This document shows, one piece after another, positions 2,311 through 42,682 of a stretch of 43,596 nt of DNA. The DNA is from Syntrophomonadaceae bacterium (lineage in GTDB: Bacteria; Bacillota; Dethiobacteria; DTU022). The stretch spans positions 1 to 43,596 of the forward strand of contig SKPH01000021.1 of the NCBI GenBank assembly GCA_007119615.1. Direction: 5' to 3'. Position 1 is the stretch's first letter. Each line of letters opens with the position of its first letter. A program made the translations under genes and the position numbers. The notes under the pieces are model-generated. The model was not told the origin of the DNA. It worked only from the letters and a program-made list of their open reading frames with translations, and ran no database searches.

Positions 2311-2314
2311 CCGG

Positions 2315-3034: not shown

Positions 3035-3097
3035 AAAGTTTACCAGTTTGGCCGTTTTTCCCGGAGCACTTAAACTAAAAGGGGGTAGATTCAGTTT

Positions 3098-4021: not shown

Positions 4022-4103
4022 ATACAGTAAAACGGATGCATTACGTGTACTTCCAGACAATATAAGCTTTCGATAATAAAGGGAAAAACAGCCGATTCAA
4101 AGC

Positions 4104-4132
4104 GGGCAGGCAGGAACAGTTCTTGCTTGCCC
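4104..4132 (+). terminator. Stem-loop after the opuC-like operon
   Basis: A 14-bp stem (GGGCAGGCAGGAAC with GTTCTTGCTTGCCC, two G-U pairs) has a tight loop and is followed by CCAAAATTT rather than a clean T-run. It lies between the binding protein and the CBS-protein gene. It could terminate or attenuate transcription. Confidence 0.4.
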
Positions 4133-4182
4133 CAAAATTTATAGTTCTAAAATTATTGACAACCTTAATAGGAGGGAATACC

Positions 4183-4680
4183 ATGGCCATATTGGCGAAA
4201 GATATAATGACATCGCCGGTTGTTACTATCAAGGCCGATACACCGCTGAAGAAGGCAGCTGAAATTTTAGATGAAAACTCCTTTAGCGGTATGCCGGTCG
4301 TTAACGATGAGGATAAATTAATAGGGGTAATTTCGGAGACAGATATATTGAGTTATACACAGCAAATCATTGGACAACCTCTGCGTGACCCGCACCGTGC
4401 ATTCACTAAAAGCCAGGAAGTGCTGTATATCGACATTACCTGCCGGGGGTTGGAAGTAATTGAACTTGTAGCTTCAACGACGGTTGAAACTTTAATGACC
4501 CTGGATGTTATCTATGTAACCGGCGATGCGCCACTTTACGACGTAGTCAGCCTCATGCAGGAACATAATATTAATCGTATCCCTGTAGTTGATGAAACAA
4601 AAGAAGTCCAGGGAATTATCACCAGGGCAGATATAATTGCTACAATGGTGAATAACTGGGAATCAATAAACCTGGATTAA
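4183..4680 (+). CDS. Stand-alone tandem CBS-domain protein
   Basis: This is a 165-residue cytoplasmic protein made of two CBS domains, about residues 5-60 (AKDIMTSPVVTIKADTPL...) and 100-160 (VETLMTLDVIYVTGDAPL...GIITRADI). CBS pairs (Bateman modules) bind adenosyl nucleotides and act as energy or redox sensors. The ATG at 4183 is chosen because AGGAGGG lies 7-8 bases upstream. Extending to a TTG at 4123 would place coding sequence across the hairpin. It sits between the osmolyte transporter and the MttB-like enzyme, so it may regulate betaine use. No partner can be named from sequence. Confidence 0.85.
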   Translation: MAILAKDIMTSPVVTIKADTPLKKAAEILDENSFSGMPVVNDEDKLIGVISETDILSYTQQIIGQPLRDPHRAFTKSQEVLYIDITCRGLEVIELVASTTVETLMTLDVIYVTGDAPLYDVVSLMQEHNINRIPVVDETKEVQGIITRADIIATMVNNWESINLD

Positions 4681-4730
4681 GCAGGCTGTTTAACCCGGTT
4701 AATAGCAACTTGGTATTGGGGGCAGGCGAT

Positions 4731-18434: not shown

Positions 18435-19091
18435 TTGAACAGTTGGAGCGATAACAAGAATGAGAGCCGCGGAGCGGTTATACTAGCGGGGGGCGACAGT
18501 AAAAGACTGGGAGAGCCGAAAGCGCTGCTTGATTTTGAAGGACGATCGCTGATTGAGTTGATGATCAGCCGCCTGGGCAGATACTTTGATCAGCTTACCG
18601 TGGTAACAGACAGGCCTGATCTGTACAGCAACCTTCCTGTCCGTTTAACCGGGGACCTGCTTAAAGATGAACAGAAAAGCCCCCTGCGGGGCATTCATGC
18701 CGGGTTGAGTGTTTCGAATTTGCCCTATCAGTTTGTAGCAGCCTGTGATATGCCTTTCCTGAACCTTGAGCTGATTAAGTATATGGAAGAATTTGCTCCT
18801 GATTTTGATGCTGTGGTGCCTCGTATCGGAGAGTATTATCAGCCGCTTCATGCGTATTATAACCGCTCCTGTATTAAAATAATTGAAGAGCAGGTCAGTT
18901 TGGGCCGGTATAAAGTTACCGATTTTTATGACCACTTAAAAATCAGGTTCATCGGCTTGAAGGAAATTTTAAGGATTGATCCCGATCAGGAATCGTTTAT
19001 AAACATTAATACCCGGAGCGATTATGAACTTGCCCTTAAAACCTGGGCGAATAAACAAAAACAAGATAAGATAAGAGACAGGAGGGGATAA
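18435..19091 (+). CDS. mobA: MobA-like molybdenum cofactor guanylyltransferase
   Basis: This 218-residue nucleotidyltransferase has the MobA signature AVILAGGDSKRLGEPKALL at the N-terminus, then DQLTVVTD, SPLRGIHAG and AACDMPFL with the metal-binding Asp. It would join GMP (or another nucleotide) to molybdopterin. It begins with TTG after AGGGGTG. Two bases separate it from the CofE-like gene downstream. Its place next to tat genes fits maturation of Tat-exported molybdoenzymes. A CMP-type specificity (MocA) cannot be excluded. Confidence 0.82.
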   Translation: MNSWSDNKNESRGAVILAGGDSKRLGEPKALLDFEGRSLIELMISRLGRYFDQLTVVTDRPDLYSNLPVRLTGDLLKDEQKSPLRGIHAGLSVSNLPYQFVAACDMPFLNLELIKYMEEFAPDFDAVVPRIGEYYQPLHAYYNRSCIKIIEEQVSLGRYKVTDFYDHLKIRFIGLKEILRIDPDQESFININTRSDYELALKTWANKQKQDKIRDRRG

Positions 19092-19093
19092 GA

Positions 19094-20263
19094 ATGATTG
19101 AAATCCCGGATTATGTTGGGCCAATGGCTTTTGGCCTGAAAATGGGTGTTATCTTGCCTGGGATGGATATTGTGGAAAAGGTAAGTGAACCTTTAACCCA
19201 ATGTCATCGTGACGGCATGCTTGGCGACGGAGATGTTATCTGTGTAACTGAATCTATTGTGGCCCGCGCTCAAAACAATTATGTCACAATCGATGATATT
19301 GCCCGGGAAATACAAGGGAAATTAAATTTATCAGAAGACAGCAGAGTGGCCGTGGTTTTTCCTATTGCCAGCCGAAACCGTTTTTCAATGATTATGAAGG
19401 GGATAGCCAGATCTGTCCCTCGCGGTGAAGTGGTAGTCCAGCTTTCATTCCCTGTCGATGAAGTTGGCAATCAGGTAATTGATACCGAGTTTGTTGAAAA
19501 GCTGGGTAAAGATCTGATTAGCCCCGAAGATCTTGAAGGGCATAGTTTCAGGCATCCGGTTACGGGTGTGGATTATATTAACCTTTACAATGAGATCATC
19601 AGAACAGAAGGAGCAAAGCCGGTCATTTTTCTATCAAACGATCCCCTGCGCGTTCTCAGGTTTGAACCGGAAGGCATTATTGCAGCCGATATCCATACCA
19701 GGTCTCTAACTAAAAAAATAGTTTGCAGCAAATTTCGAAACTGTATTACATTGGATCAGGTATGCACTGAAGGTGCATCGTGCTCAGAATGGGGATTGTT
19801 GGGCAGCAATATGTCCTCAGGTGAAAGGCTTAAGCTGGCTCCGCGTGACGGTTTCAAGGTTGTTAACCGCCTGAAAGAAAAATTGAAAGAGGATCTTGGT
19901 ATAGATGTACAGGTGATGATTTATGGAGACGGTGCATACCTTGATCCCTCAAGCGGTATATATGAACTGGCTGATCCCCGGGCGGCCTTTGCTGCTACGG
20001 AAGGCTTAAATTGTGTCCGGGAAGGTTTCAAATACAAGTACCTGGCTGACCAATGCTTCCATGAAGAAAAAAAGAACGCGGAAGAAATTGAGGCAATCCT
20101 GCTGGATAACAGCCGCCGGGTGGGGTTGACTGAAGATTGTATTGACAGGGAAGGAACCACACCGCGGCGGATGGAAGATGTTCTTGCCAGCCTGGCTGAC
20201 TTGGTGAGCGGTTCTGCCGATGCCGGCACCCCCGTGGTAGTTTTAAGAGGTTTTCTTAAATAG
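19094..20263 (+). CDS. CofE-like glutamate ligase family protein (F420-0:gamma-glutamyl ligase fold)
   Basis: This 389-residue protein resembles the coenzyme F420-0:L-glutamate ligase family in its N-terminal block (EKVSEPL...LGDGDVICVTESIVARAQ) and in the central NDPLRVLRFEPEGIIAADIH. Known CofE adds gamma-linked glutamates to F420 using GTP and a metal. The protein is longer than archaeal CofE and has a Cys-containing stretch around residues 212-240 (CSKFRNC...VCTEGASC) that may bind metal. No other F420 genes are in the window. Coupling to mobA (2 bases, GGAGGGG site) suggests a cofactor substrate, which is inference. Its end overlaps the convergent lnt by 21 bases. Confidence 0.65.
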   Translation: MIEIPDYVGPMAFGLKMGVILPGMDIVEKVSEPLTQCHRDGMLGDGDVICVTESIVARAQNNYVTIDDIAREIQGKLNLSEDSRVAVVFPIASRNRFSMIMKGIARSVPRGEVVVQLSFPVDEVGNQVIDTEFVEKLGKDLISPEDLEGHSFRHPVTGVDYINLYNEIIRTEGAKPVIFLSNDPLRVLRFEPEGIIAADIHTRSLTKKIVCSKFRNCITLDQVCTEGASCSEWGLLGSNMSSGERLKLAPRDGFKVVNRLKEKLKEDLGIDVQVMIYGDGAYLDPSSGIYELADPRAAFAATEGLNCVREGFKYKYLADQCFHEEKKNAEEIEAILLDNSRRVGLTEDCIDREGTTPRRMEDVLASLADLVSGSADAGTPVVVLRGFLK

Positions 20264-26297: not shown

Positions 26298-26708
26298 CTA
26301 TCTAGGTTTATTTTGATCCGCCAGGGAGCATGAAGGGCAGAGGCCGTAAAAATCGAGTCGATGTGATTCAACCCGGTAATTGGTTGAGTCGGCTGCTTTT
26401 TTATTCAGACCGGATAAAGCTTTCAGTGGAAGGTCATCAACGGAGCTGCATATTCGGCATATAAAGTGGTAATGCAGATCTGTGTTGGCATCGAAACGGT
26501 TGAAACTGCTACCGGCCTCAATTTTTTTGACTAAATTTTGGTCTATTAATATATTAATATTTCGATATACAGTTCCTATACTCAGGTTGGAAAACTCTGT
26601 TCGCAGTTGCTCATAAATCCAACTTACTGTAGGATGTGTGTCAGTATCCCGTAATATACCTAAAATACGCTCTCTTTGTCTGCTGCGTTTGTATTTAGAT
26701 TGATCCAT
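26298..26708 (-). CDS. perR: PerR-like peroxide-sensing Fur-family repressor
   Basis: This 136-residue metalloregulator is of the Fur family. With a constant offset of 12, its residues His25, Asp73, His79, His81 and Asp92 match the B. subtilis PerR regulatory-metal ligands H37, D85, H91, H93 and D104. The structural zinc site is Cys84/Cys87 and Cys124/Cys127. Asp rather than Glu at the D104 position is the PerR-type choice. The N-terminal winged helix is residues 1-70. It would repress oxidative-stress genes until peroxide oxidises a metal-ligand histidine. A ZIP transporter and superoxide reductase lie just beyond on the same strand. It has a weak ribosome site. Confidence 0.85.
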   Translation of the reverse strand: MDQSKYKRSRQRERILGILRDTDTHPTVSWIYEQLRTEFSNLSIGTVYRNINILIDQNLVKKIEAGSSFNRFDANTDLHYHFICRICSSVDDLPLKALSGLNKKAADSTNYRVESHRLDFYGLCPSCSLADQNKPR

Positions 26709-26781
26709 CCGGCATTGATTCCATTTCTAATTAATTTTGTGTCTCTATCGATAGTATATGCTTACAGGCCACAGGTCAAGC

Positions 26782-27522
26782 TTAAAACCAGGCCGTAAAG
26801 AGAATACCTAAAATGGTTCCAACCGTAATTCCTAAAATTGAAAGGTGGGCCCCGGCACTTTTATAGGCATCAGGAATAAGTTCATCACAAACAATATATA
26901 GCATTGCTCCCGCAGCAAAGCCCAGTGAGAGCCCCAGGACGTAATCAGATATGCTGCTGATAGCGGCGCCAATGAGGGCCCCGATACCCATCGGGACTCC
27001 GGCCAGCGCAGTTATGGCGAACACTTTCCAGTAGCTGTAACCGCCATGTCGCAGCGGAGCAGCAACAGCCATACCTTCAGGTATATTATGCAGCCCGATT
27101 ATAATGGCCAGAGATAATCCCAGCTCAGGAGAGCCGACAAACCCGGTGCCTATGGCCAGTCCTTCTGGAAAGTTGTGAAGGCCTATTCCTAAAGCCAGTA
27201 AGGTCCCTTTTTTTAGATAAGCGCCAAAAGGGTTTTCTTCAGGGGTTACCGCGTGATGATGCGGTAGAAAGTGATCAAGGATATAAAAAATGCCCATACC
27301 AAGGATAATTCCTATGATTGCCGCCCAGTGGCCGCTGTAGAAAATTGATTCATCCACAAGCTCCAGGAATACAATAGAGAGCATAATCCCGGCTGCAAAG
27401 GCAAGAATTGTACCTGTAAAGCGAGGGGTCGGATTTTTAACAAATACCGATGAAAGTCCGCCCAGGCCGGTGCCGGCAACTCCCGCCAACATACCGAGCG
27501 CCCCTACTTCCAGCCAATTCAT
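26782..27522 (-). CDS. ZIP-family divalent metal transporter
   Basis: This 246-residue membrane protein has about eight helices. The ZIP metal-binding helices are visible as LHNFPEGLAIG and LHNIPEGMAVA. A His-rich loop HFLPHHHAV lies between the third and fourth helices. It resembles the GufA/ZupT branch, which imports zinc, iron or manganese. AAGGAATG precedes the ATG. The perR-like gene is 73 bases downstream on the same strand, so metal uptake and peroxide sensing may be coregulated. Confidence 0.88.
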   Translation of the reverse strand: MNWLEVGALGMLAGVAGTGLGGLSSVFVKNPTPRFTGTILAFAAGIMLSIVFLELVDESIFYSGHWAAIIGIILGMGIFYILDHFLPHHHAVTPEENPFGAYLKKGTLLALGIGLHNFPEGLAIGTGFVGSPELGLSLAIIIGLHNIPEGMAVAAPLRHGGYSYWKVFAITALAGVPMGIGALIGAAISSISDYVLGLSLGFAAGAMLYIVCDELIPDAYKSAGAHLSILGITVGTILGILFTAWF

Positions 27523-27613
27523 TTAATAATCATTCCTTATAAAAATAGAATAAATATCCTCGACTATTTTAAATCTACGACCTGAAAAAATAAAATGTTC
27601 CTTCCGGAGACAA

Positions 27614-27646
27614 CCAAAGAAATCCCCTGCCAGGGGATTTCTTTGG
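27614..27646 (-). terminator. Hairpin downstream of superoxide reductase gene
   Basis: Perfect 16-bp arms (CCAAAGAAATCCCCTG and its complement) around a single base. Reading leftward on the minus strand, it follows the superoxide reductase gene and is succeeded by TTGTCT, a poor T-run. It probably ends that transcript. Confidence 0.6.
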
Positions 27647-27704
27647 AAAATACACCGGCAGAAACCCGTAATAACTGTTTAACATATGTTTATTCTAAAG
27701 ATTT

Positions 27705-28100
27705 TTAACCTAAATCGAGTTTCTCAGTATTATCCCAGAGGCCGTGGATGTTACAGTAGCTGAGAGCGATTAGTTCACCCGGCTTTTCCAGGGTTACTGT
27801 AGTTGAAACAACCGGTTCACATTTGGCGCTGCCTTCATTGGCTCCTTCTACAGATTCTGCATGAGCTTCAAACTGGAATGTTCCCAACTGGACGATAAAC
27901 TTTTCGCCTTCAGGTTTAAAGAGTAGTTTAATGTAGCGTATATGATGTTCTGTAGTGTGGGGATGAGGGACTTCCTCTCCTACACTTAGCTGAACTTTGA
28001 ATGCTTCGCCTTTCTTGGCCGGGCCCTGAACTTTGATTACAGGCACATGCTTTTCAGTTTTCCAGTCATCTGACTGGACATGAGCTCCTATAGCGCTCAT
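27705..28100 (-). CDS. Superoxide reductase (neelaredoxin-type, one-iron)
   Basis: This 131-residue enzyme reduces superoxide to peroxide without making oxygen, a hallmark of anaerobes. The iron ligands are recognisable: EKHVP near residue 16-20, HPH with EHH at 46-53, and YCNIHGLW near the C-terminus (Cys and His). The N-terminal rubredoxin-like (desulforedoxin) domain of two-iron enzymes is absent. The ATG at 28100 has AAGGAGGAG six bases upstream, better than a start six codons earlier. It is transcribed toward the ZIP and perR-like genes. Confidence 0.92.
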   Translation of the reverse strand: MSAIGAHVQSDDWKTEKHVPVIKVQGPAKKGEAFKVQLSVGEEVPHPHTTEHHIRYIKLLFKPEGEKFIVQLGTFQFEAHAESVEGANEGSAKCEPVVSTTVTLEKPGELIALSYCNIHGLWDNTEKLDLG

Positions 28101-28232
28101 AAATAACTCCTCCTTCATGATAATAATATCTTCTTTATTTATATATTCTCCGGAAACCGGGTTCTTCCTTTATTTAAGCGAAAATTCTTCTTAATAATTG
28201 CTGTAAAACACCTCTTATCCTGCAAATAAAGA

Positions 28233-30724: not shown

Positions 30725-31495
30725 TTGGCTTTGCGTATAGGTATTGCCGGTTATGGGCAGATGGGTAGGATGATCCGGCAAAAAGCACTTGCCGGCGGTC
30801 ACGAAGTACCGGTAATTGTTGATCCCGACAGCACCTCTGAGGAGGTCACCGCTGAAGATGTAGCTTCGATTTCTGCACCAGTGGATGTTATAATAGATTT
30901 TACGGCGCCGCATGAGGTAATTAATAACATTGAACGTTACGGCGAATTGAAAATACCGGCAGTAATCGGAACTACCGGATGGTATGAGCAGATGAACCGG
31001 GTTGCCGCAATCGTCGATAAATCTGGAATCGGCCTGATCTGGTCGAGCAACTTCTCGTTGGGAGTAAATCTTTTTTTCCAACTGGTTAAATCGGCCGGCA
31101 GGCTAATGAACCGTTTTCCTCATTACGATGCAGCAATTCATGAATGTCATCACCGCCATAAAGCAGACAGCCCATCAGGTACAGCCAAAACGATCGGTGA
31201 TATCATTTTAACTGCTCTGGATAGAAAAAGGTTGACGGTAAGTGAATTACGGGAAGGCCGTATTGATAAAGACGCACTGCATATATCATCTACCAGGTGT
31301 GGTTCTGTACCGGGTTTTCACCGGGTGATTTTTGACAGCGATGTGGATACCATTGTTTTGGAGCACACGGCCAGAAACCGTGAAGGATTTGCCGAAGGAG
31401 CTCTGGCAGCGGCCGATTGGATTTGCGGCAGAAAAGGTATGTTTAGTATAGACGATATGATGGAATCAATCATCGGAGGTGTTTTCGATCGATAA
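30725..31495 (+). CDS. dapB: 4-hydroxy-tetrahydrodipicolinate reductase
   Basis: This enzyme catalyses the second committed step of lysine/meso-DAP synthesis (256 residues, usual length). The Rossmann motif is GIAGYGQMGRMI, the substrate region is ECHHRHKADSPSGTAKT (with the catalytic His-His and Lys), and the C-terminus EFAEGALAA-like block follows. It begins with TTG, 8 bases after AAGGGGG. Its end overlaps the preferred frame of dapA by 17 bases, giving translational coupling. Confidence 0.93.
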   Translation: MALRIGIAGYGQMGRMIRQKALAGGHEVPVIVDPDSTSEEVTAEDVASISAPVDVIIDFTAPHEVINNIERYGELKIPAVIGTTGWYEQMNRVAAIVDKSGIGLIWSSNFSLGVNLFFQLVKSAGRLMNRFPHYDAAIHECHHRHKADSPSGTAKTIGDIILTALDRKRLTVSELREGRIDKDALHISSTRCGSVPGFHRVIFDSDVDTIVLEHTARNREGFAEGALAAADWICGRKGMFSIDDMMESIIGGVFDR

Positions 31496-32390
31496 TATAT
31501 TCCGCGGAGCGCATACAGCCCTGATTACTCCGTTTACTTCAACCGGGGCCGTGGATATTGGAGCATTCAAACGCCTGGTGGAATACCAGATCGAATCGGG
31601 TATCGATGGATTGGTGCCCTGCGGTACTACCGGCGAAAGCTCAACTCTTACTCATGATGAGCACGATAGGGTCATAGCCCTGACAGTGGAGTATGCTGAC
31701 GGACGGGTCCCGGTTATTGCCGGAACGGGAAGCAATGCCACCGTAGAGGCGGTTCAATTATCTCAGCATGCCGAACAGGCAGGAGTTGATGCAGTCCTTC
31801 TGGTCAACCCTTATTATGTAAAACCAACCCAGAAAGGCCTCTACCTGCACTTTAAAGCTGTTGCGGAATCGATCTCGATTCCCTGTATAGTTTACAATAT
31901 CGAAGGGCGTACCGGTGTTAATCTTGAGAATGAAACCCTCTACCGGCTGATGAGCGAAAACAAAAATATCGTCGGAGTGAAAGAAGCTTCGGGAAGCCTG
32001 GAGCAGATGAAAAACCTGATCAGTTTACGCCACGATGAATTTGTAGTCCTGTGTGGTGACGACAATATGACTGTAGACCTGATTGAAGCCGGGGGCAATG
32101 GTGTTGTTTCCGTGGCAGCGAACCTGATTCCACGTCAGATGACAGAGATGGTTCACAATGCTCTTGATGGGAATATCAAACAGGCCAGAGAGCTTGAAAA
32201 CCGCCTGATGCCTTTTTTTAAAGCCTGTTTTGTTGAAACAAACCCAATCCCGATCAAGACGGCTATGGCCATGAGAGGTTGGTGCCAGGAAGCTTTCAGA
32301 CTGCCGATGTGTTCACTCTCCCGTGATGAGCATTATAATGTTATCAGGGAAGCGATAGATAAACTGGAAATTCCGGAGTTTAATGCGTAA
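31479..32390 (+). CDS. dapA: 4-hydroxy-tetrahydrodipicolinate synthase
   Basis: This enzyme condenses pyruvate with aspartate semialdehyde to begin the DAP branch (303 residues). Typical blocks are GAHTALITPF, GTTGESSTLTHDEH, AEQAGVDAVLLVNPYY, the YN-x-GRTG loop and VGVKEASG with the Schiff-base lysine. The loop reads YNIEGRTG where P is usual in place of E. The start is unclear. GTG at 31479 overlaps the ribosome site GGAGG. The same site is 8 bases from an in-frame ATC (31488), so initiation may use a rare codon or depend on coupling to dapB. Confidence 0.93.
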   Translation: MFSIDNIFRGAHTALITPFTSTGAVDIGAFKRLVEYQIESGIDGLVPCGTTGESSTLTHDEHDRVIALTVEYADGRVPVIAGTGSNATVEAVQLSQHAEQAGVDAVLLVNPYYVKPTQKGLYLHFKAVAESISIPCIVYNIEGRTGVNLENETLYRLMSENKNIVGVKEASGSLEQMKNLISLRHDEFVVLCGDDNMTVDLIEAGGNGVVSVAANLIPRQMTEMVHNALDGNIKQARELENRLMPFFKACFVETNPIPIKTAMAMRGWCQEAFRLPMCSLSRDEHYNVIREAIDKLEIPEFNA

Positions 32391-32422
32391 TCAGAAATTA
32401 TTAGGAGAATAAGGAGCAGGTT

Positions 32423-33652
32423 ATGGCAAAAATTAATGCACATTACAGAAAACTAAGCGCCGGTTATCTTTTTCCTGAAATCGGCAGGAGAATAAAAATA
32501 TTTCAGCAGGATAACCCCGGTTTCAAAGTGCACCGGCTGGGTATCGGTAACACTACTGAACCGCTTACGCAGGCCGTGATCAACGGTCTGCGGAAGGGAG
32601 TCGACTCCCTGGCAGCAAAGGAAACCTATTCAGGTTACGGAGACGAACAGGGCGAAGAAGAACTGCGGGCAGGACTTTCCCGATTTTATAAAAACCGGGG
32701 AGTCGGTATTGAAATTGACGAATTTTTTGTCAGCGATGGAGCAAAACCTGATGCTGGAAATATTCAATCGATTTTCAGCACTGATAACCGGATCGCATTC
32801 CAGGACCCGGCCTATCCGGTTTATGTCGACTCAAATGTAGCTGCCGGGAGGTCGGGCCCTTATGACAATAAACAGGGTAATTACAGTGGCTTTGTCTACA
32901 TGGTTTGCAACCTGGAGAATGGATTTATTCCCGATCCGCCACAGGAGCGGGTCGACCTGCTTTACCTGTGCAGCCCGAACAACCCAACCGGTGCCGTCGC
33001 TACTCACCGGGATCTGCAAAATTTTGTTGACTATGCCCGTGAACGGAATGCAGTGATAATTTACGATGCTTCTTATTCAGAGTTTATTTCCGATTCAGCT
33101 CTCCCGCGCTCAATATATGAAGTTAACGGAGCTAAAGAATGTGCGATCGAGATTAACAGTTTTTCCAAGTTCGCCGGATTTACAGGAGTTCGCCTTGGAT
33201 GGTCGATCGTTCCCAGGACCCTGGTTTGTGAAGACTGTGAACCCGGTGAGCTTCATGATTTTTGGTTGCGCCGGCAGACAACCTTTTTTAACGGGGCTTC
33301 AAATATTGCTCAGCGCGGCGGGATTGCTGTGCTCTCAGATCAGGGACTAAGGGAATGCGCTGCTCTGATTGATTACTACATGGAAAATGCCCGGGTGATC
33401 AGAGAGAGCCTTCTAAAAAGGGGGCTTTTAGTCTACGGAGGAGTAAATGCCCCATATCTCTGGGTGAAAGCTCCCGGAAACCTTTCTTCGTGGGAATTTT
33501 TCAATAAACTCCTCGATGAAGCTCATGTGGTTGGTACTCCCGGATCAGGTTTCGGCCCTTCCGGTGAAGGGTACATTCGGCTGAGCGCGTTTAACCACCG
33601 TGAAAATATTGAAGAGGCGGTAAGGAGTATCCTGGATAACCTGGCTTTATAG
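32423..33652 (+). CDS. dapL: LL-diaminopimelate aminotransferase
   Basis: This PLP enzyme makes LL-diaminopimelate directly from tetrahydrodipicolinate, bypassing the succinylase route (409 residues). Recognisable blocks are GYLFPEIGRRIKIF, LGIGNTTEPLTQAV, SPNNPTGAVA and the PLP site SFSKFAGFTGVRLGW with Lys249. AAGGAG precedes the ATG. It lies between dapA and lysA in a pathway-ordered cluster. No dapD, dapC or dapE is present here. Confidence 0.93.
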   Translation: MAKINAHYRKLSAGYLFPEIGRRIKIFQQDNPGFKVHRLGIGNTTEPLTQAVINGLRKGVDSLAAKETYSGYGDEQGEEELRAGLSRFYKNRGVGIEIDEFFVSDGAKPDAGNIQSIFSTDNRIAFQDPAYPVYVDSNVAAGRSGPYDNKQGNYSGFVYMVCNLENGFIPDPPQERVDLLYLCSPNNPTGAVATHRDLQNFVDYARERNAVIIYDASYSEFISDSALPRSIYEVNGAKECAIEINSFSKFAGFTGVRLGWSIVPRTLVCEDCEPGELHDFWLRRQTTFFNGASNIAQRGGIAVLSDQGLRECAALIDYYMENARVIRESLLKRGLLVYGGVNAPYLWVKAPGNLSSWEFFNKLLDEAHVVGTPGSGFGPSGEGYIRLSAFNHRENIEEAVRSILDNLAL

Positions 33653-33805
33653 CCGGCAAAATCCTGGAAATAAAGAACTCATTGATAAATTGATTCAATT
33701 TACTAATACCGGTTATCTTTATAATTGAAAACAGTTAACTTTCTTCTTACCAACGAGGGAGAGGTATTCTAATCGGATTAACTCTCTATTGCGGAGGCGG
33801 CAAAT

Positions 33806-35068
33806 GTGAATGAAAAAAGAATCCCTTTATCGAAAACAGAACTGGAAGCGATAGCATCTGAATATCCTACACCATTTCACATCTACGACGAAAAAGCTAT
33901 TCGGGAAAATGCGCGGGCTTTTTATCGGGCTTTCTCCTGGATTTCCGGTTTTAATAACCATTTTGCGGTTAAAGCCTGCCCCAATCCGACTATACTGAAT
34001 ATTTTGCGCGAAGAAGGTATGGGAGTCGATTGCAGCTCTTTGGCGGAGCTGGTTTTATCTGAAAGGGTTGGTTTTAAGGGTGATCAGATAGTTTTCACTT
34101 CCAATGATACTCCGCCGGAGGAATTTATCGCTGCCACCCGCCTGGGCGCTGTTATCAACCTGGATGATATCGGGCATATTGAAACTTTGGAAAAAAGCGC
34201 AGGTTTACCCGAACTGCTATCTTTTCGTTATAATCCCGGTGAGGCCCGTACTGGCAATGTTCTCATCGGGCAGCCGCAGGAAGCAAAGTATGGGATAACT
34301 ACCGATCAGGTTGGAGAAGCTTACCGGAGGATCAGGGATAAAGGTGTAAAACGTTTCGGCCTGCATACAATGGTTGCCTCGAATGAACTTGAAAACAGTT
34401 ACTTTGTGGAAACCGCCCGCATGTTGTTCGAGCTGGCTGTGAAGATAAAGCGTGATTGCGGGGTAGATATTGAGATGATTAATATGGGCGGAGGTATTGG
34501 AATTCCGTACCGCCCTGAAGACAGCGCAATTGATCTATCGGAAATTTCCAGGGGCATGCAAAAACTTTACGGACAAATCATTGTGCCTGAAAGCCTTGAC
34601 CCCCTGAAAATAGTTTTTGAGTGCGGCAGGCTAGTAACAGGGCCTTACGGTTACCTGGTCAGCAGGGTGCGCCATGTAGCCCATAAATACAAGGATTATG
34701 TTGGTTTGGATTCCTCTATGGCCAACCTTATGCGCCCGGGCTTATACGGAGCATACCACCATATTACTGTGCCGGGTAAAGAAAATATGCCTCCAGGGCG
34801 AACATACGATGTTACCGGCTCTCTTTGTGAAAATAATGATAAATTTGCTATTGACCGCCCTCTTCCGGAAATTGAAGCAGGGGACCTGGTGGTTATTCAC
34901 GATACCGGAGCTCACGGCTATTCGATGGGTTTCAACTATAATGGCAAATTGCGCTCTGCGGAACTATTGCTTCGGGACGACGGTTCAGTTCAAAAAATTC
35001 GCCGTGCAGAGACCATCGATGATTATTTTTCGACAATGCGGTTTCCGGGAGCCCCGGTATCGATTTGA
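33806..35068 (+). CDS. lysA: Diaminopimelate decarboxylase
   Basis: This PLP enzyme decarboxylates meso-diaminopimelate to lysine (420 residues). It is a fold type III barrel with Lys56 in FAVKACPNP, the glycine loop NMGGGIGIPY, ECGRLVTGPYG, and the second-domain GSLCENNDK. The active-site Cys and the partner Tyr near HGYSMGFNYNG are present. It begins with GTG with GGAGGCGG upstream. The 153-base gap after dapL is A/T-rich and may hold its own promoter. DapF is not seen in the window. Confidence 0.9.
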   Translation: MNEKRIPLSKTELEAIASEYPTPFHIYDEKAIRENARAFYRAFSWISGFNNHFAVKACPNPTILNILREEGMGVDCSSLAELVLSERVGFKGDQIVFTSNDTPPEEFIAATRLGAVINLDDIGHIETLEKSAGLPELLSFRYNPGEARTGNVLIGQPQEAKYGITTDQVGEAYRRIRDKGVKRFGLHTMVASNELENSYFVETARMLFELAVKIKRDCGVDIEMINMGGGIGIPYRPEDSAIDLSEISRGMQKLYGQIIVPESLDPLKIVFECGRLVTGPYGYLVSRVRHVAHKYKDYVGLDSSMANLMRPGLYGAYHHITVPGKENMPPGRTYDVTGSLCENNDKFAIDRPLPEIEAGDLVVIHDTGAHGYSMGFNYNGKLRSAELLLRDDGSVQKIRRAETIDDYFSTMRFPGAPVSI

Positions 35069-35129
35069 GCCGCTTGCCTTTGCCTCGATGAATGCGGCTA
35101 TTTAAACTATAGAAAGGAGTGTGTTTTAA

Positions 35130-35900
35130 ATGATCAGAAGCGATCTCAGGGCCTACATCAATATAGGAGCGCTGGTTCTTGTTTTGCTGGTTAACTTTCT
35201 CTCCAATTTCTTACCTTTCGGAGGGGTTACACAAGAAGAGCTTGGCGAGCTGTACCCGGTACTGATTACCCCTGCTGGTTACGCCTTTTCTATCTGGGGC
35301 CTAATCTATCTTGCCCTCATTGCCTTCATAATCTACCAGGCCACACCGGGCTTCCGGGAAAATCCGGCCGTCAAGGCAGTGGGAATATTATTTGCAGTGA
35401 GCAGTCTTTTCAACATCCTCTGGTTGTTTTTCTGGCATTACCAGCGGGTGGGCTGGTCTATGATTGTTATGCTCCTACTGCTGGCAACGCTGATCATCAT
35501 TTATCTTCGTATCGGCGCGGTTACGACGGAAAAAACTTTATATGACCGTCTGCTGGTGAAGTATCCCTTCAGCCTTTACCTTGGTTGGATAACGGCTGCG
35601 GCGATTGTTAATTTTAATGTGCTGCTCTATAATATCGGCTGGCTGGGTACTGGTGCCGGTGCGGTCTTATTTACAATGTTGATGATTGTTTTTGCCGCCC
35701 TGGTGGCAATTGCTGTTTTTTACCTGCGCCAGGATTATATCTACTCCGCTGTCTTTGTCTGGGCCCTGGTCGGTATCGGGGTTCGTCACGGTACTGATAT
35801 AATTATCCTGACAATTTCAGCCTGGCTGGCTGCTGCAGCGATTATTTTCTTTCTCGGCTGGATTACCGCCCGAAGCAAGACTGCAACGGGGCCGCGTTAA
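35130..35900 (+). CDS. TspO/MBR-like membrane protein (extended family)
   Basis: This 256-residue membrane protein has seven or so helices. It contains ITPAGYAFSIWGLIYLALIAF, a segment characteristic of tryptophan-rich sensory proteins (TspO/MBR) of the longer type. Canonical TspO has five helices and binds porphyrins or tetrapyrroles. The extended proteins have no established function. AAAGGAGTG precedes the ATG. It lies between lysA and an MFS gene on the same strand. Confidence 0.7.
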   Translation: MIRSDLRAYINIGALVLVLLVNFLSNFLPFGGVTQEELGELYPVLITPAGYAFSIWGLIYLALIAFIIYQATPGFRENPAVKAVGILFAVSSLFNILWLFFWHYQRVGWSMIVMLLLLATLIIIYLRIGAVTTEKTLYDRLLVKYPFSLYLGWITAAAIVNFNVLLYNIGWLGTGAGAVLFTMLMIVFAALVAIAVFYLRQDYIYSAVFVWALVGIGVRHGTDIIILTISAWLAAAAIIFFLGWITARSKTATGPR

Positions 35901-35986
35901 ATCTACCTGAAGCAGTATTGCAGGTTAATATTGCTTTGATTGCCAGGCGGTCAGGTTAGCATATTTTAACGGAGGGCGGTGTGTTT

Positions 35987-37318
35987 GTGAATATGCAAAC
36001 GACAGATCAACAGTATAAACGGCGCACCGGCCTTCTCTACCTGCTGTTCAGCACTGTATTTTTTTTAAATGCTGTAATCTTTCTTTTCCAGGCTCTAACC
36101 AAAAATCTCTTTCCGCCCCTTCTTTTGCCGCTCAGGGAAGCTTTTCTGATTGATAACTCCCAGGTGGGCATGCTGGTTACCCTGGTTTTTTTCGGTTATG
36201 CCCTGGCCAGATTCCCTTCAGGCATAATGGCTGATCACATTGGCTGTACCAAAACCGTCCTCCTGGGAAGCGCCGCCATGGCCATCTCCTTCGTCGGAGT
36301 GGCTGTGTCTCCAAATTATCCCGTAATGGCTATTATGGTTTTCATCCTTGGTGTTAGCAGTGGTGTTTATGTCACAGCCGGTTACACTCTTGCTGTTATC
36401 ATTGGTTCCCGAAAGAGAGCTGCTACGGCTACCGCTGCTTTCGAATCTTTCGGTATTGCAGCCGGCATAGCTTCTCCTGCCCTGGTTACGGTATTCGTCC
36501 TTTTCCTGAATTGGCAGTTACTGTTTATACTGTCCGGTATTTTACTGGCAGCAGTTACAGCTTTGTTTCTCCGTTTTAAAGAGAGCTCATTTAATTACGA
36601 GGAAGAGTATGCCGCTCAAAGTGGTATTGATGGAGGATATATTGATAATTTACCATCACCGGAGCCCCAGGCGGGAATGTTAAAAAAATTAATACAAGAT
36701 ATCCGCTCCTCTAATGTTATATTCCGCGATCCAGTGATCAGGCGGTTTATTATCTGGAGCACCCTGGTCGGTGGATTAGGAGCGCTGTCATGGACCGGCA
36801 TAAATTCATTTATCCCCACTTTCCTGGTTGAAGAAAGAGGCTATAGCTATGATCTTGCCAACAGGATGTTTATTATAGTCGCTGTGGCAGGGCTGGCTGC
36901 GAAGATCGGAATTGGCTCGCTGGCAGACCGGTTTGGGAACAACCCGGTTTTACTGGCAAACCTTGCCCTTAGTATAATAATGTTCTTTGCCCTGACTCTG
37001 GCAGTCGGGTATTGGCAGCTTATAGCTATCCTGGCATTACTTGGAGCCGCCTGCCTGAATACAAATACCCTGATCAATTCTTACGTTCTTCGCAATATGC
37101 CTCCCCGGTACCAGGGTGCAGGCTTCGGTCTTTTTAGTACAGCCTATACTGCAATTTACAGCCTGGGTCCTTACCTGACCGGTTCTTTGGCAGACATGGT
37201 CGGCCTCGGCAAAGCGATCCAATTTAGTTCTGCAGGAGCTGTGTTGGCAGTATTCCTGATCTTTTCAGCCAACTACTTTGTCCCAAAACATCTAGTTGAT
37301 AAAATGTCCCCAAGTTGA
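35987..37318 (+). CDS. MFS transporter, organic anion/nitrate-type
   Basis: This is a major facilitator protein of about 443 residues with 12 helices. The motif FPSGIMADHIGCTKTVLLGS lies after helix 2, and GLAAKIGIGSLADRFGNN begins the second half. A 40-residue polar loop (about 200-240) separates the halves. Possible starts are GTG 35981, GTG 35987 and ATG 35993. GGAGGG at 35971-35976 best fits the GTG at 35987. The substrate is unknown. Its place just before the peptide-active genes suggests it could import or export their substrate. Confidence 0.82.
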   Translation: MNMQTTDQQYKRRTGLLYLLFSTVFFLNAVIFLFQALTKNLFPPLLLPLREAFLIDNSQVGMLVTLVFFGYALARFPSGIMADHIGCTKTVLLGSAAMAISFVGVAVSPNYPVMAIMVFILGVSSGVYVTAGYTLAVIIGSRKRAATATAAFESFGIAAGIASPALVTVFVLFLNWQLLFILSGILLAAVTALFLRFKESSFNYEEEYAAQSGIDGGYIDNLPSPEPQAGMLKKLIQDIRSSNVIFRDPVIRRFIIWSTLVGGLGALSWTGINSFIPTFLVEERGYSYDLANRMFIIVAVAGLAAKIGIGSLADRFGNNPVLLANLALSIIMFFALTLAVGYWQLIAILALLGAACLNTNTLINSYVLRNMPPRYQGAGFGLFSTAYTAIYSLGPYLTGSLADMVGLGKAIQFSSAGAVLAVFLIFSANYFVPKHLVDKMSPS

Positions 37319-37440
37319 ATTAAAATATACTGAACATATATTATTTCTAATGTTAGGCGATAAAGGGTATAATTTTCATACAAAATATTTAGTAGTATTA
37401 ATATTAGAAATGCGTATTTGGTGAAAGCGGGTAGATTGAA

Positions 37441-39099
37441 ATGGTGGGATCTACAACAACCCATGAGAGAAAAGCAGTTACGGCAAAAAGCAGGTATGGA
37501 ATGGTCTCGACCGCATCGCAAGTCGCAACTGAAGCCGGGGTCCGGATTTTGGAAAAAGGAGGCAACGCTGTAGATGCAGCGGTTGCAGCAGCCTTTTGCC
37601 TCGGAGTAACCGAACCACAGGCTTCGGGCCTGGGTGGACAAAGTATGGTCCTGCTACACCATTGCCCGGGGGAAAAACCGGTTACTCTCGCGCTTGACGG
37701 ATCTTCACGGGCTCCATTTGTGATAAATCCCGAACTGCTTCCGGCAAAACCTCTTAATCAGGGCATAAGGGCGACTACAGTCCCGTCAACACCCGCCACT
37801 CTCGGTTACCTGTTGGAAACGTACGGAACCCTGACCCTGGATAAGATCTTGCAACCCTCAATTCTTGCGGCCAGGGAAGGTTTCAGGATTACTGCATTGC
37901 AGCACAGACTGCTTTCCAGGGAGAAGGAAAAGTTTACAGACGAGTTAGTGCAGTCCATATTCTTTAAAAATGGCAGGCCTTTAAATGCCGGAGATATTGC
38001 CTATCAACCTCAACTTGCAGGCTGCCTGGAAAGGATTGTTGAGAAGGGGTGGAGAGACTTTTACCTTGGAGACATTGGAGAGCAAATCATTGAAGATATG
38101 CAAAAGCGTGGAGGATTAATCACGAAAATCGATTTAAGCCAGATTCCATTACCGGTTCAACGTAAAGTTTTAAATAGTTCTTACCGTGGTTATGCTTTGG
38201 CAACTTTTCCGCCGCCGGGAGCGGGGCGGACCATGGTCCAGATCTTAAAAACCCTTGATCAGATCGAACCGGAGAAGCTTGTACCGGATTCACCGCTCTA
38301 TTATTTATTGCTGGCCATGACCTTCAGGACCGCCCTGATGGACAGGGAACGGTTTCCCATTGACCCTGTGCTTTACCCGCAGCTAAACGACAAAGGAATG
38401 ATTGATAAAGAAACCGCTTTGCGTGTTGCTTCACGTATAAAAAATTTGGTTTCTTATCTGGTAGGAGAACAGTTTACGCCCCCGCCTGCTTCCGGGGAGA
38501 CAACCCACTTATCAGCTGCCGATGCTTATGGTAATATCGTCGGTATAACACAATCGATAGAGCATGTTTTCGGGGCCAAAACCATGGCTGAAAAATTGGG
38601 GTTTTTTTATAATAATTACATGAGCGCTTATAATTATACAAATATGTTGCACCCCAACTATCTTTTGCCCGGTGGCCGTCCCTGGAGCAGTGTAGCCCCA
38701 ACCTTGCTGTTTCGTGAAAATGGGCAGCCATTTATGATCTTGGGCAGTCCCGGCAGTGAGCGGATTTCCACTATTCTGGCCCAGGTTATTTGCAGGGTTA
38801 TTGATTGCGGCCAGGAACTGGCTTATGCCATCGAAGCGCCCCGCTTTCATGCCGGAAGAACCGGTAAAGTGGCAATCGAAAAAAGAAGTTACCGGCCGGA
38901 AGTGGTTGAACTTTTGGATCGTGCAGGGTTTACGGTCAGAAGCCGGGGTGATTACAGTTTTTATCTGGGCAGCGTACAGGCCGTAGAACTGCCGAAACAA
39001 CCCGGAGGGGTCTTTATCGGGATTTCTGATCCCCGCCGCGATGGAATCGCCCGCGGGCCGCGTTCGATAAAAACTGAATGCCAGGGAGAGGTGAGATAG
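37441..39099 (+). CDS. Gamma-glutamyltranspeptidase homologue lacking a signal peptide
   Basis: This 552-residue protein of the GGT family self-cleaves and hydrolyses or transfers gamma-glutamyl groups. The opening GMVSTASQVATEAG and GGNAVDAAVAAAFCLGVTEP are typical. The predicted nucleophile is Thr354 in GETTHLSAADAYGN, and the oxyanion block WSSVAPTLLF follows. No signal peptide is present, so it is predicted to be cytoplasmic, unlike the classical secreted enzymes. The substrate may therefore be an internal gamma-glutamyl compound. The ribosome site is weak. The stop TAG shares its last base with the GTG start of the next gene. Confidence 0.83.
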   Translation: MVGSTTTHERKAVTAKSRYGMVSTASQVATEAGVRILEKGGNAVDAAVAAAFCLGVTEPQASGLGGQSMVLLHHCPGEKPVTLALDGSSRAPFVINPELLPAKPLNQGIRATTVPSTPATLGYLLETYGTLTLDKILQPSILAAREGFRITALQHRLLSREKEKFTDELVQSIFFKNGRPLNAGDIAYQPQLAGCLERIVEKGWRDFYLGDIGEQIIEDMQKRGGLITKIDLSQIPLPVQRKVLNSSYRGYALATFPPPGAGRTMVQILKTLDQIEPEKLVPDSPLYYLLLAMTFRTALMDRERFPIDPVLYPQLNDKGMIDKETALRVASRIKNLVSYLVGEQFTPPPASGETTHLSAADAYGNIVGITQSIEHVFGAKTMAEKLGFFYNNYMSAYNYTNMLHPNYLLPGGRPWSSVAPTLLFRENGQPFMILGSPGSERISTILAQVICRVIDCGQELAYAIEAPRFHAGRTGKVAIEKRSYRPEVVELLDRAGFTVRSRGDYSFYLGSVQAVELPKQPGGVFIGISDPRRDGIARGPRSIKTECQGEVR

Positions 39100-41267
39100 T
39101 GAAAATAGCGATAATTTATAATAGAGACAGCCAGGCAGTGATCAATCTGTTTGGGACGCCCAATCGCGAAAAATACGGTTTGCAAACGATCGATATGATT
39201 ACTGAAGCTCTCGGGGAAGGCGGTCATCAGATTAAAGCGTTTGAAGGCGACAAAAACATCATGTATGCGCTGGAAGAATTTATGCCCACGGTTATTTCCG
39301 GTGAGCGGCCTGGGCTTGTTTTTAACCTCAGTTACGGTATTCAAGGCCGGGCCCGCTATACTCATATACCTGGCATTCTCGAAATGCTGGGCATTCCTTA
39401 TGTTGGTTCAAGCCCGGCAACCCATGCTATTGCTCTGGATAAAGTGCTGACCAAGATGGTACTCCTCCAGAAAGGGCTGCCCACTCCGAAATTTACGGTA
39501 CTGGAAACACCCCACTTTACTCTGCCCCTGGGCGATGATTTGAAATATCCTCTGATCGTCAAGCCTAAGGATGAGGCTGTCTCTTTCGGACTGAGGATTG
39601 TAAACAATGATCAGGAATTGCGGGAAGGGGTTGCAACAATTTACAACAACTTCAGGGCAACTACACTGGTTGAGGAATATATTGAAGGCCGTGAAATTAA
39701 TATAGGACTTCTGGGGAATGATCCTGTCGAAGCTTTTCCGCCAGTTGAAATTGTTTTCAGTGAAGGGGAGCATATCTATACCTATGAAGATAAAATAAAA
39801 ACCAGCGGTAGAATGTTGGATAAAATCTGTCCAGCGCCTCTCGAGCCGAAGGTAACTGAAAAGTTGAAGCGGCTGGCTGTTGATGCATTTAAAGCCTTGG
39901 ACTGTTTCGACAGCGCCAGGGTCGATTTTCGGATTGATAATCAAAACAACCCCTATATTCTGGAAGTAAATTCCATGGCCAGCCTGGGGCCGGGAGGGTC
40001 GTATGTCTATGCGGCAGAAAAAGCGGGACTGCCTTATAATGCTCTGGCCAACCGTTTGATTGAGGTAACCAGTCAGCGCTATTTTGGCCCCATGGTTATA
40101 GGAGACAGTTCACCCTGGTATCAGGATGACCCCAGAAGTACGGCTTTTACCAGCCTTACTCAGAATCGCGACAAGTTGGAGGAAGAGTTAAAAAACTGGA
40201 CAAATCTTCCCAGCTGGACCGGTGATCCTGTGGGACTTGGCGCAGTTGTAAAGAGGTTGGAACAACGGTTTTCCGAGCTCGGCCTTAAACCGGTACAGGA
40301 GTACAGCAGCAAACGTTCAGCCTGGACCTGGCAGACGGAATCCGGTTTTGAAGACGGGACACTGCTTGTTGCATCCATTGACGTTCCCCGGGACGGAGGT
40401 GGCGGTTATCCGATTCCTTTCCGGCGCGATCCTGAATGGTTGTATGGCGAAGGGATAGCTTCCAGCCGGGCCGGCATTGTCTGTATCCTGGAAGCTCTTA
40501 ATACCCTAAATTCAATCGATAAACTACAGGACAATAAGCTGGGTGTTTTTATTTATGCCGATGAGGGCAGGGGAATGCGTTACAGCTCGCAATACCTGCA
40601 GCGGGCCGCCGCCGCGGCAGGGCAGGTAGTCGTTTTACAGCCCGGTTTTTCCGGCGGCAAAGTTGTTGACCAACGCCGCGGTTCACGTAAGTTCAGTATT
40701 TTGGTAGAAGGAGAATTTCAACGGATTGGTTCTCACGGATCATCTGATGACCTGATGAGCTGGTTTTTGTCCCGAGCCGACAAAATCGGCTCACTCAGTA
40801 TGCCGGAAGAGCGGCTGACGGTTGCAGTGCAGGAAGTTCACTCCGAACGGTATAGCGTCTTACTTCCTCACCGCATCAGGGCTACAGTATACGTTACATT
40901 TCTTGATGCTGAACTGGCGGATCGGGCAGAATCCAGGCTTCATGAGTTTTTTGCTCCCGGGCAGGGAGAAATGGATGAAACCATGGTTTATATCGAACGC
41001 CTTGAGGAGAGGCCTTCCTTAAACCGATCAGAGGAGACAGCCCGAATGATTTCGCGGTTAAGAAAAATAAGTGAAGATTGGAAACTGCCGTTTGGGGTTG
41101 AAGCCAGCTTACTGCCTTCAGCTGCCGGCGAGGTACCAGCAGGGACACCTGTAATTTGCGGATTTGGGCCTGCAAGCCGGGACATGTTTACCCCCCACGA
41201 ATGTATTCACAGGGGAGAAATGCTGCAACGGGCCCTGCTTTTAACTCTTTTACTGTTGGAGGATTAA
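39099..41267 (+). CDS. ATP-grasp (D-Ala-D-Ala ligase-like) fused to M20-like pseudopeptidase
   Basis: This is a 722-residue two-domain protein. Residues about 1-330 resemble D-Ala-D-Ala ligase ATP-grasp enzymes: VFNLSYGIQG, IPGILEMLGIPYVGSSPATH, LIVKPKDEAVSFG and the metal site RVDFRID...ILEVNSMASLGPGG (Glu289, Asn291). Residues about 365-722 follow the M20 metallopeptidase order, but the metal ligands look replaced: the H-x-D motif reads ASIDV (Ser426), the next D reads GEGIASSRAG, D-E-E reads DEGRG, and the following E reads VVLQP (Gln514). The catalytic Glu and the final His (TPHECIH) remain. The preferred start is GTG at 39099, overlapping the previous stop by one base, with GGGAGAGGTGAG upstream. 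The activity may be amide-bond formation plus substrate binding. Confidence 0.75.
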   Translation: MKIAIIYNRDSQAVINLFGTPNREKYGLQTIDMITEALGEGGHQIKAFEGDKNIMYALEEFMPTVISGERPGLVFNLSYGIQGRARYTHIPGILEMLGIPYVGSSPATHAIALDKVLTKMVLLQKGLPTPKFTVLETPHFTLPLGDDLKYPLIVKPKDEAVSFGLRIVNNDQELREGVATIYNNFRATTLVEEYIEGREINIGLLGNDPVEAFPPVEIVFSEGEHIYTYEDKIKTSGRMLDKICPAPLEPKVTEKLKRLAVDAFKALDCFDSARVDFRIDNQNNPYILEVNSMASLGPGGSYVYAAEKAGLPYNALANRLIEVTSQRYFGPMVIGDSSPWYQDDPRSTAFTSLTQNRDKLEEELKNWTNLPSWTGDPVGLGAVVKRLEQRFSELGLKPVQEYSSKRSAWTWQTESGFEDGTLLVASIDVPRDGGGGYPIPFRRDPEWLYGEGIASSRAGIVCILEALNTLNSIDKLQDNKLGVFIYADEGRGMRYSSQYLQRAAAAAGQVVVLQPGFSGGKVVDQRRGSRKFSILVEGEFQRIGSHGSSDDLMSWFLSRADKIGSLSMPEERLTVAVQEVHSERYSVLLPHRIRATVYVTFLDAELADRAESRLHEFFAPGQGEMDETMVYIERLEERPSLNRSEETARMISRLRKISEDWKLPFGVEASLLPSAAGEVPAGTPVICGFGPASRDMFTPHECIHRGEMLQRALLLTLLLLED

Positions 41268-41269
41268 TC

Positions 41270-42088
41270 ATGACGCCTGGTATTAGCAGCCTGCCGCTGA
41301 TAATATCAGTTCCGCACGGCGGTCTGGAAGTGCCGCCGGAGGTGGAAAAATATTGCCGCCTCGATTCGTCGGACCTGCTAAGAGAAGGAGACATCTGGGC
41401 AGATTTTATATATAATATAAAAGAACATGTCCATGCATTTATTAAGTTTCCGGTAGCCCGGGCTATTATTGACGTTAACAGGGCTGCCGACGACAGGCCC
41501 CCGCAAAATCCCGACGGGGTAGTAAAAACTTTAACTCTGAATAATGATTATATCTGGGAAAAAGTCGGGGGGCTTTCCGAAGATCAAATCGGAAAGCTGT
41601 TGGATCGTTATTATTATCCGTACCATCAATATCTCTCTGCCTATTCTGTTAACCGGGATATATTGTTGGGTCTTGACTGCCATACCATGCTGGAGCGAGC
41701 GCCGCAAATTTCGAACTGCCCTGGAGAAGCGCGGCCCCTGGTCTGTCTGAGTAACGGGGGAGATGAAAACGGGGAAGCATTAGACGAACCTGTTACCGCT
41801 TCTCCTGATCTGATTCGGTCCCTGGCGCAGGCCCTTGAGCGGCAGTTGATGAATTTTGGTCTTGACAGTTCAGTGCCGCCCGTTTTGCTTAACCGGCCTT
41901 TCAGCGGCGGTTATATTACAAAAACAAATGGTTCTGTCGAACAGATACCCTGGATTCAGATTGAATTTAACCGCTCTTTATACCTTTCAGATGAACCCCG
42001 GGTTTCAGGTCCGGATCAGCAGACTACAAAGCGTATTGAGATGCTGAAAATGTATTTTTTAAAAGCTCTTGAAGATTTGTTTTTATAA
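41270..42088 (+). CDS. N-formylglutamate amidohydrolase family protein
   Basis: This 272-residue protein resembles the N-formylglutamate amidohydrolase (HutG-like) family of zinc amidohydrolases: ISVPHGGLEVPPE at the N-terminus, RAIIDVNRAADDRP and LGLDCHTMLERAP. The His and Asp residues in SVPHGG and LDCH are expected metal or substrate contacts. ATG at 41270 follows GGAGGATT and is two bases after the upstream stop. Longer in-frame readings extend into that gene and are rejected. No other histidine-degradation genes are present, so the substrate is more likely an acylated or gamma-glutamyl amino acid made or used by the neighbours. Confidence 0.82.
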   Translation: MTPGISSLPLIISVPHGGLEVPPEVEKYCRLDSSDLLREGDIWADFIYNIKEHVHAFIKFPVARAIIDVNRAADDRPPQNPDGVVKTLTLNNDYIWEKVGGLSEDQIGKLLDRYYYPYHQYLSAYSVNRDILLGLDCHTMLERAPQISNCPGEARPLVCLSNGGDENGEALDEPVTASPDLIRSLAQALERQLMNFGLDSSVPPVLLNRPFSGGYITKTNGSVEQIPWIQIEFNRSLYLSDEPRVSGPDQQTTKRIEMLKMYFLKALEDLFL

Positions 42089-42108
42089 GAAAGGAGGTGT
42101 TCCGGAGA

Positions 42109-42384
42109 ATGGATAAAGAAGCATATAAGCAGAAACAGGAAGCGCAATTAAAGGAGTGGCAGGCGGAAATTGATAAGCTGAAAGCTCAGACCCAGAAGAA
42201 AAGCGCCGAATCCAAAATAGCATACGAAGAGAATATAAAGAAACTGGAAGAAAAGAAGGAAGAAGCATCAGAGAAATTTAAGGCGTTGCAGGAAACCGGC
42301 GATGAACGCTGGGAAGAAGTCAAAAGTGAGTTTGAGAAAAAGGCGGAAGACTTTAAGAAGCAGCTAAAGGATATATTTTCTTAA
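42109..42384 (+). CDS. Small charged coiled-coil protein
   Basis: This 91-residue protein is almost entirely helical, with a continuous Lys/Glu-rich heptad pattern (KEWQAEIDKLKAQTQ...YEENIKKLEEKKEEASEKF...). It has no signal peptide or membrane segment. It resembles small coiled-coil proteins annotated in many bacteria without a known role. AAGGAGGTG lies 8-10 bases upstream of ATG 42109. It is the last gene of the ggt-like cluster (20-base gap) and is followed by a strong hairpin. Confidence 0.8.
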   Translation: MDKEAYKQKQEAQLKEWQAEIDKLKAQTQKKSAESKIAYEENIKKLEEKKEEASEKFKALQETGDERWEEVKSEFEKKAEDFKKQLKDIFS

Positions 42385-42420
42385 GTTTTCATAAGTTAGA
42401 AGTAGTTTTCTGCTATGCGG

Positions 42421-42459
42421 AACAGGGTAAGCCGGGAATAATTCCCGGCTTACCCTGTT
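42421..42459 (+). terminator. Long hairpin terminating the ggt/ATP-grasp cluster
   Basis: Two perfect 19-base arms (42421-42439 and 42441-42459) form a very stable stem containing AAGCCGGGAA. The following bases (TTTAAATGG) give only a short T-run. Its position 36 bases after the coiled-coil gene supports termination. Confidence 0.75.
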
Positions 42460-42682
42460 TAAATGGCATCACCCTGATTGCCTGCAATCTTCTTTTACCC
42501 ATAGGATTAGTAAATAATGATAATAAGGTTAGTTTAATAACTTATCAGTCATGCAGTGAAAATGCTTCGAGGCTATTAATTGGGATGGGCTATAAAGATG
42601 TCTACGATTTCGGTGGGGTAGTTGATTGGAATTACGATATCATCGAAGATCAGCAATCCTGACGGATGGGTTGTTGTAAAGG

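Follow-up and report, generated by a model that had tools for sequence, protein, structure and literature searches.

What does a bacterium make, or unmake, with a GGT-like enzyme, an ATP-grasp ligase fused to something that resembles a peptidase, and an FGase-like amidase, if it keeps the three genes packed head to tail? The question is raised by one end of a window of 43,596 nucleotides, the whole stretch of DNA that was analysed. Within a metagenome-assembled genome (MAG) of 1.06 Mb and 70% completeness it forms contig C59. The original prediction saw there a candidate cluster for the tailoring of gamma-glutamyl or peptide compounds. An ORF check of the window found four co-directional genes at 37441-42384. 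With their surroundings they are:

30725-37318, + strand: dapB, dapA, dapL, lysA-like, tspO-like and MFS genes, the conserved lysine operon of the family, context outside the cassette
37319-37440, + strand: gap between the MFS and GGT-like genes, 122 bases, AT-rich, with sigma-70-like sites (scan)
37441-39099, + strand: GGT-like gene, ATG start, 552 aa
39099-41267, + strand: ligase fusion gene, GTG start at 39099, 722 aa
39099-40098, + strand: ATP-grasp ligase domain (fusion residues 1-333), D-Ala-D-Ala-ligase fold, PF07478 8.1e-37
40098-41267, + strand: carboxypeptidase-G2-like (M20) domain, CPG2 being the best structural match (Z 38.2, 370 residues)
41270-42088, + strand: FGase-like gene, ATG start, 272 aa, 2-base gap after the ligase gene
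42110-42384, + strand: small coiled-coil gene of the sll1863 family, ORF 42097-42384, preferred ATG at 42110
42420-42465 (about 42420-42460), + strand: strong hairpin, MFE -36.5 kcal/mol, z = -8.2

The packing that had been claimed for the trio, a 1-base overlap and a 2-base gap with a hairpin after a fourth gene, is borne out by the ORF coordinates and by folding. The GTG of the ligase gene shares one base with the GGT stop, and in the alignment the ligase homologues of other genomes begin at the same residue. The fourth gene most likely starts at the favoured ATG 42110, which is preceded by AAAGGAGG. Its product reaches 84.6 bits in NF052504, ‘sll1863 family stress response protein’, whose cut-off is 35, and a gene of this type is also found 3' of the FGase gene in G019, G451 and G452. 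The hairpin is a probable transcript end; its T tract is short and does not match the canonical T-rich terminator. An Rfam scan found tRNA as the sole RNA element. A promoter of the trio's own inside the 122-base gap is possible; the sigma-70-like sites seen there are consensus matches only and not evidence of function.

Other parts of the window may be recorded in passing. At 461-6212 two glycine-betaine/choline-type ABC permeases with their ATPase and binding protein, as read from sequence, are followed by a CBS-domain protein and an MttB-family methyltransferase (PF06253). The frame of the latter is open, with no in-frame TAG, and therefore of the non-pyrrolysine type; the whole is possibly a unit for betaine uptake and demethylation. 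At 18435-20263 a MobA-like nucleotidyltransferase precedes a protein of the F420-0:gamma-glutamyl-ligase family (PF01996), another relative of gamma-glutamyl-type ligases within the window. A Fur-family regulator, a ZIP-type transporter and a desulfoferrodoxin/superoxide-reductase-like protein, likewise read from sequence, cluster at 26298-28118.

Does the trio occur elsewhere? We surveyed 398 genomes of the phylum, with co-occurrence statistics on 397, the window's genome being excluded; other phyla were sampled through 72,556 plasmid records. With subfamily limits of E <= 1e-130 for GGT and E <= 1e-50 for FGase, the ligase fusion was present in 15 of the 398 genomes (three more have the ligase only), the GGT subfamily in 8 and the FGase subfamily in 7. 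Among the 397 genomes, and without phylogenetic correction, the fusion accompanies five of six FGase carriers (p = 1.5e-7) and five of seven GGT carriers (p = 5e-7), while GGT and FGase occur together in six genomes (p = 1.3e-12). The three genes are adjacent in six lineages and in three gene orders: GGT-ligase-FGase in the window, G019, G057 and G289, ligase-GGT-FGase in L024, and GGT-FGase convergent with the ligase in G104. Pairs of them are seen in G027, G143, G209, G339 and G452. The conserved neighbourhood that had been predicted thus recurs, and its confinement to a single genome is refuted. The open literature searched offered nothing on point for the trio, the ligase-pseudopeptidase fusion or y4rH; neither the exact trio nor this fusion was described there.

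Of course, three ordinary enzymes might share an operon by chance, and the many orphan ligase fusions and the patchy distribution would fit such a view. It is, however, barely credible in the face of uncorrected co-occurrence p values down to 1e-12 and of a gene order permuted in six lineages and again in Bradyrhizobium. A ligase identity of 35-81% also disfavours a single recent transfer. At about ten fusion loci GGT and FGase are both missing from the neighbourhood, which means that the ligase can work without these partners. Against a cassette stand G288, with GGT-FGase but without ligase, and G451, with FGase and no ligase on the contig.

Some loci look like stages of loss. The GGT-FGase pair of G288 (L101, G288:C1:1072954-1075374) has a transposase gene just upstream of GGT, and no ligase-fusion gene was found in that genome at a limit of E 1e-55; a loss event is possible. 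Several stops and a change of frame interrupt the ligase fusion of another genome (L145 / L026, G457:C207); the adjoining FGase gene is intact, and the locus appears as one of ligase decay with the amidase kept. Alternative partners of FGase (HU-ParA, an HD-domain protein, glycerate kinase) were considered in G143, G339, G189 and G267; none was consistent.

The middle member of the trio is an unusual fusion. Its 722 residues match PF07478 (8.1e-37) and PF01546 (6.7e-6). An AlphaFold model based on 25 sequences reached a mean pLDDT of 84; an earlier one from 8 sequences (pLDDT 66) was discarded. According to Foldseek/VIA comparison of the model, residues 1-331 resemble Ddl with a Z of about 32, and residues 344-722 carboxypeptidase G2 (1cg2) with a Z of 38.2. 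Across 25 homologues no change is seen in the ATP-grasp metal residues D276, E289 and N291, nor in R274 and K155. With carboxypeptidase G2 and the M20 peptidases the second domain has in common the fold of the entire domain and the general-base glutamate E489, which is retained in the main clade of fusion homologues. The zinc ligands H/D/E/E/H of M20 metallopeptidases, in contrast, are absent: other residues stand at all five positions, which we take to be H112, D141, E176, E200 and H385 in CPG2 numbering, both in the window protein and throughout 21 fusion homologues, the one exception being a lone histidine in G104. Invariant metal residues and lost zinc ligands imply an active-looking ligase joined to a dead peptidase domain, and the original description of the protein as ligase plus pseudopeptidase stands.

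Nor is the ligase domain an ordinary Ddl. It shares with Ddl (PF07478) the ATP-grasp fold over residues 1-331 and the Mg-binding D/E/N residues, but scores 172 bits against an NCBIfam cut-off of 243 and falls below every Ddl cut-off. The places of the D-Ala-binding residues, presumably of the E15/Y216 type of E. coli DdlB, are occupied by YNRDSQAVINLFG and EDKI, so that the N-terminal substrate motif and the Tyr216 position are altered, and a second domain of 390 residues is added. Another contig of the same MAG, C63, carries a Ddl-like gene of its own, which together with the low scores excludes the fusion as the housekeeping Ddl.

The GGT-like protein belongs to PF01019 (5.8e-116), and its T355 aligns with T391, the nucleophile of E. 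coli GGT (2e0w); autoprocessing is predicted from this alignment. Fold family, predicted Thr nucleophile and oxyanion-loop region are those of GGT, class-IV cephalosporin acylase and CapD-like Ntn hydrolases. It differs from them by a start without evident export signal, as read from sequence, by a score under the TIGR00066 cut-off (345 versus 358), and by its donor site. E. coli GGT holds the donor with R114, N411, Q430, D433, S462 and S463 (PMC6769717). In the subfamily of 13 members R114 has become S in nearly all, Q430 is Y in all but one, and D433 is mostly A; the window protein has S/Y/A. With Ala in place of Asp, B. subtilis GGT loses all transfer and retains some hydrolysis, whereas R-to-S alone is mild, with 85% activity in the B. 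licheniformis enzyme, and is natural in extremophile GGTs (PMC8062742). Since D-to-A has this effect, a hydrolase with altered acyl specificity is likelier here than a gamma-glutamyl transferase. The idea that the enzyme transfers or hydrolyses gamma-glutamyl groups finds no support in view of the changed R114/Q430/D433, and ‘gamma-glutamyl’ is better dropped from the name of the cassette.

The FGase-like protein is a member of the PF05013 superfamily (5.8e-40; 138 bits versus a cut-off of 28.9) with conserved PHGG, GD and D-x-H motifs in alignments. The PHGG and D-x-H motifs are common to it and HutG N-formylglutamate amidohydrolase (PF05013, 2q7s). It is, however, not a HutG deformylase by score (70 bits against the TIGR02017 cut-off of 279), and no histidine-degradation genes lie near it in the window. 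The removal of N-acyl groups from glutamate-like amino acids, as once proposed, therefore goes no further than the family name. That the trio fits neither the histidine nor the glutathione pathway is borne out; despite their annotated family names, these GGT and FGase genes probably have a role outside both metabolisms.

With hydrolases as two of the three active enzymes, the set could serve degradation or salvage: the GGT-like and FGase-like enzymes would cleave an N-acylated or gamma-linked amino acid or short peptide taken up from outside, and the freed amino acid would be re-used by the ligase. FGase indeed persists in G451, G454 and G457, whose ligase is lost or damaged, and an MFS gene adjoins GGT-ligase in the window and, as a non-orthologous one, in G027. 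We nevertheless concede to this view a minor chance at best: the ATP-using ligase is the most widespread component (15 of 398 genomes versus 8 for GGT and 7 for FGase), the GGT lacks an evident export signal, and the MFS of the window belongs to the lysine operon.

The latter point deserves some detail. The operon dapB-dapA-dapL-lysA-tspO-MFS occurs without the trio in G025, G033, G005, G014 and G002. The MFS carrier had been correctly placed just upstream of the trio; as a specific component it drops out, its orthologue being the last gene of the dap operon in genomes devoid of the trio. The incomplete MAG contains no second DapL above the cut-off and, for LysA-like, only a weaker match. Three loci, those of the window, G019 and G027, have the trio or a pair directly behind the lysine operon. 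The FGase and coiled-coil genes of G451 separate tspO from MFS, and G454 shows a truncated GGT plus FGase after tspO. Trio, pair or remnants are thus found in or beside the lysine operon in five genomes, a linkage known from one family only. We read these loci, from their gene arrangement, as one linked cassette that presumably suffered repeated partial losses. Its position beside the operon suggests lysine or a lysine-pathway compound as a substrate.

The adjacency to dap genes might also be explained by the cell wall, if the ligase extended a peptidoglycan or capsule precursor by an amino acid, with the stem peptide held by the dead domain. The ligase fold is that of a D-Ala-D-Ala ligase, the dap genes do adjoin in one family, and the capsule enzyme CapD is among the relatives of GGT. 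Yet the Ddl-like gene on C63 is separate, the N-terminal motif and the Tyr216 position of Ddl are altered in the fusion, and the loci examined show no recurring mur, mraY or secreted partner. This makes a cell-wall module quite unlikely.

The reading that we prefer, if only tentatively, is a cassette that makes and recycles a small amide or amino-acid conjugate in the cytoplasm, perhaps one derived from lysine and linked to stress. The ATP-grasp domain would activate a carboxylate with ATP and then join it to an amine, in the window's family most likely lysine or a compound of its pathway. The fused dead carboxypeptidase domain might bind or position a peptide-like substrate or product, and the GGT-like Ntn-hydrolase and the FGase-like metallo-amidase would trim or break down the conjugate. 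The sll1863-type protein in the cassette suggests expression under salt or general stress. The gene content, the conserved co-occurrence and linkage, the intact residues of ligase and nucleophile and the loss of the zinc ligands are observed; we infer that the substrate is a small molecule and not a protein, that lysine is the partner, in which direction the two hydrolases act, and the role in stress.

For this reading some circumstantial points can be quoted. The named near relatives that also carry the fusion comprise Syntrophomonadaceae MAGs whose sample codes contain CSSed, and one labelled ‘Mollicutes’, T1Sed10_57; we take these codes to denote soda-lake sediment. Sll1863 is among the top salt-induced proteins of Synechocystis; inactivation of Sll1862/Sll1863, however, caused no salt-sensitive phenotype (PMC8670252). 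A lysine operon that feeds the compatible solute N-alpha-acetyl-alpha-lysine is a precedent (PMC4685198). The codes of the relatives, the salt induction and the precedent count for the cassette and its stress link; the null phenotype, the lysine linkage in one family only and the confounded KamA association described below count against it.

In Bradyrhizobium barranii, which supplies the best GGT match among the 72,556 plasmid records, this gene has the best ATP-grasp match as its neighbour; the genes run KamA-like aminomutase, GGT, 7TM_transglut, ATP-grasp. The signature TQSI...FG(A/S)K...YNNY is common to this GGT and the Firmicutes members. In other rhizobia the ligase is near a condensation-domain/KamA fusion or panD; a Mesorhizobium plasmid protein (L013:6923-9736), encoded just upstream of the ATP-grasp ligase, unites an NRPS condensation domain with a KamA-like radical SAM aminomutase. 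KamA is present in 17 of 17 ligase carriers versus 266 of 397 genomes, with a p of about 0.001 that is confounded by anaerobe phylogeny. As a general partner KamA (lysine 2,3-aminomutase) is a weak candidate, since two thirds of all genomes carry it; in the incomplete MAG of the window it was not found.

The 7TM_transglut protein between GGT and ligase in Bradyrhizobium recalls the rlo operon of Pseudomonas, where such a protein is paired with an ATP-grasp protein (PMC12239564), and both could be taken to indicate tagging or modification of proteins with peptides, as in RimK-like or 7TM_transglut/ATP-grasp (Rlo-like) systems. We consider this very unlikely: neither 7TM_transglut nor an aspartic protease was among the Firmicutes neighbours scanned with Pfam, and a Ddl-like fold is typical of small-molecule ligases. 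Within the preferred make-and-recycle reading a bolder version can be formulated, which we hold to be unlikely as a whole. A hitherto unrecognised pathway would yield an alpha- or beta-lysyl amide, derived from lysine, that serves as solute or signal under salt stress; the dead CPG2 domain would select or sense the peptide, the two amidases would recycle the amide, and the ligase-GGT core would be re-used on rhizobial symbiosis plasmids with aminomutase or NRPS parts.

Whatever the product, an enzyme set that recurs across phyla, has a clean genetic boundary and comprises an unusual fusion of an active ligase with a dead peptidase merits attention, and culturable carriers make the missing metabolite directly testable. 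Among known systems, NAGGN clusters bring together dedicated enzymes and genes that supply the amino acids for a small metabolite of the stress response. The present locus resembles them and the N-alpha-acetyl-lysine compatible-solute clusters in this combination (for the lysine case, see PMC4685198). It differs by having neither an acetyltransferase nor an amidotransferase, and the solute role is putative here. A survey of ATP-grasp amidoligase neighbourhoods was reportedly presented by Iyer and co-workers in 2009. In neighbourhoods of this type ATP-grasp enzymes are clustered with amidases, aminomutase or 7TM_transglut, just as they are in the present set.
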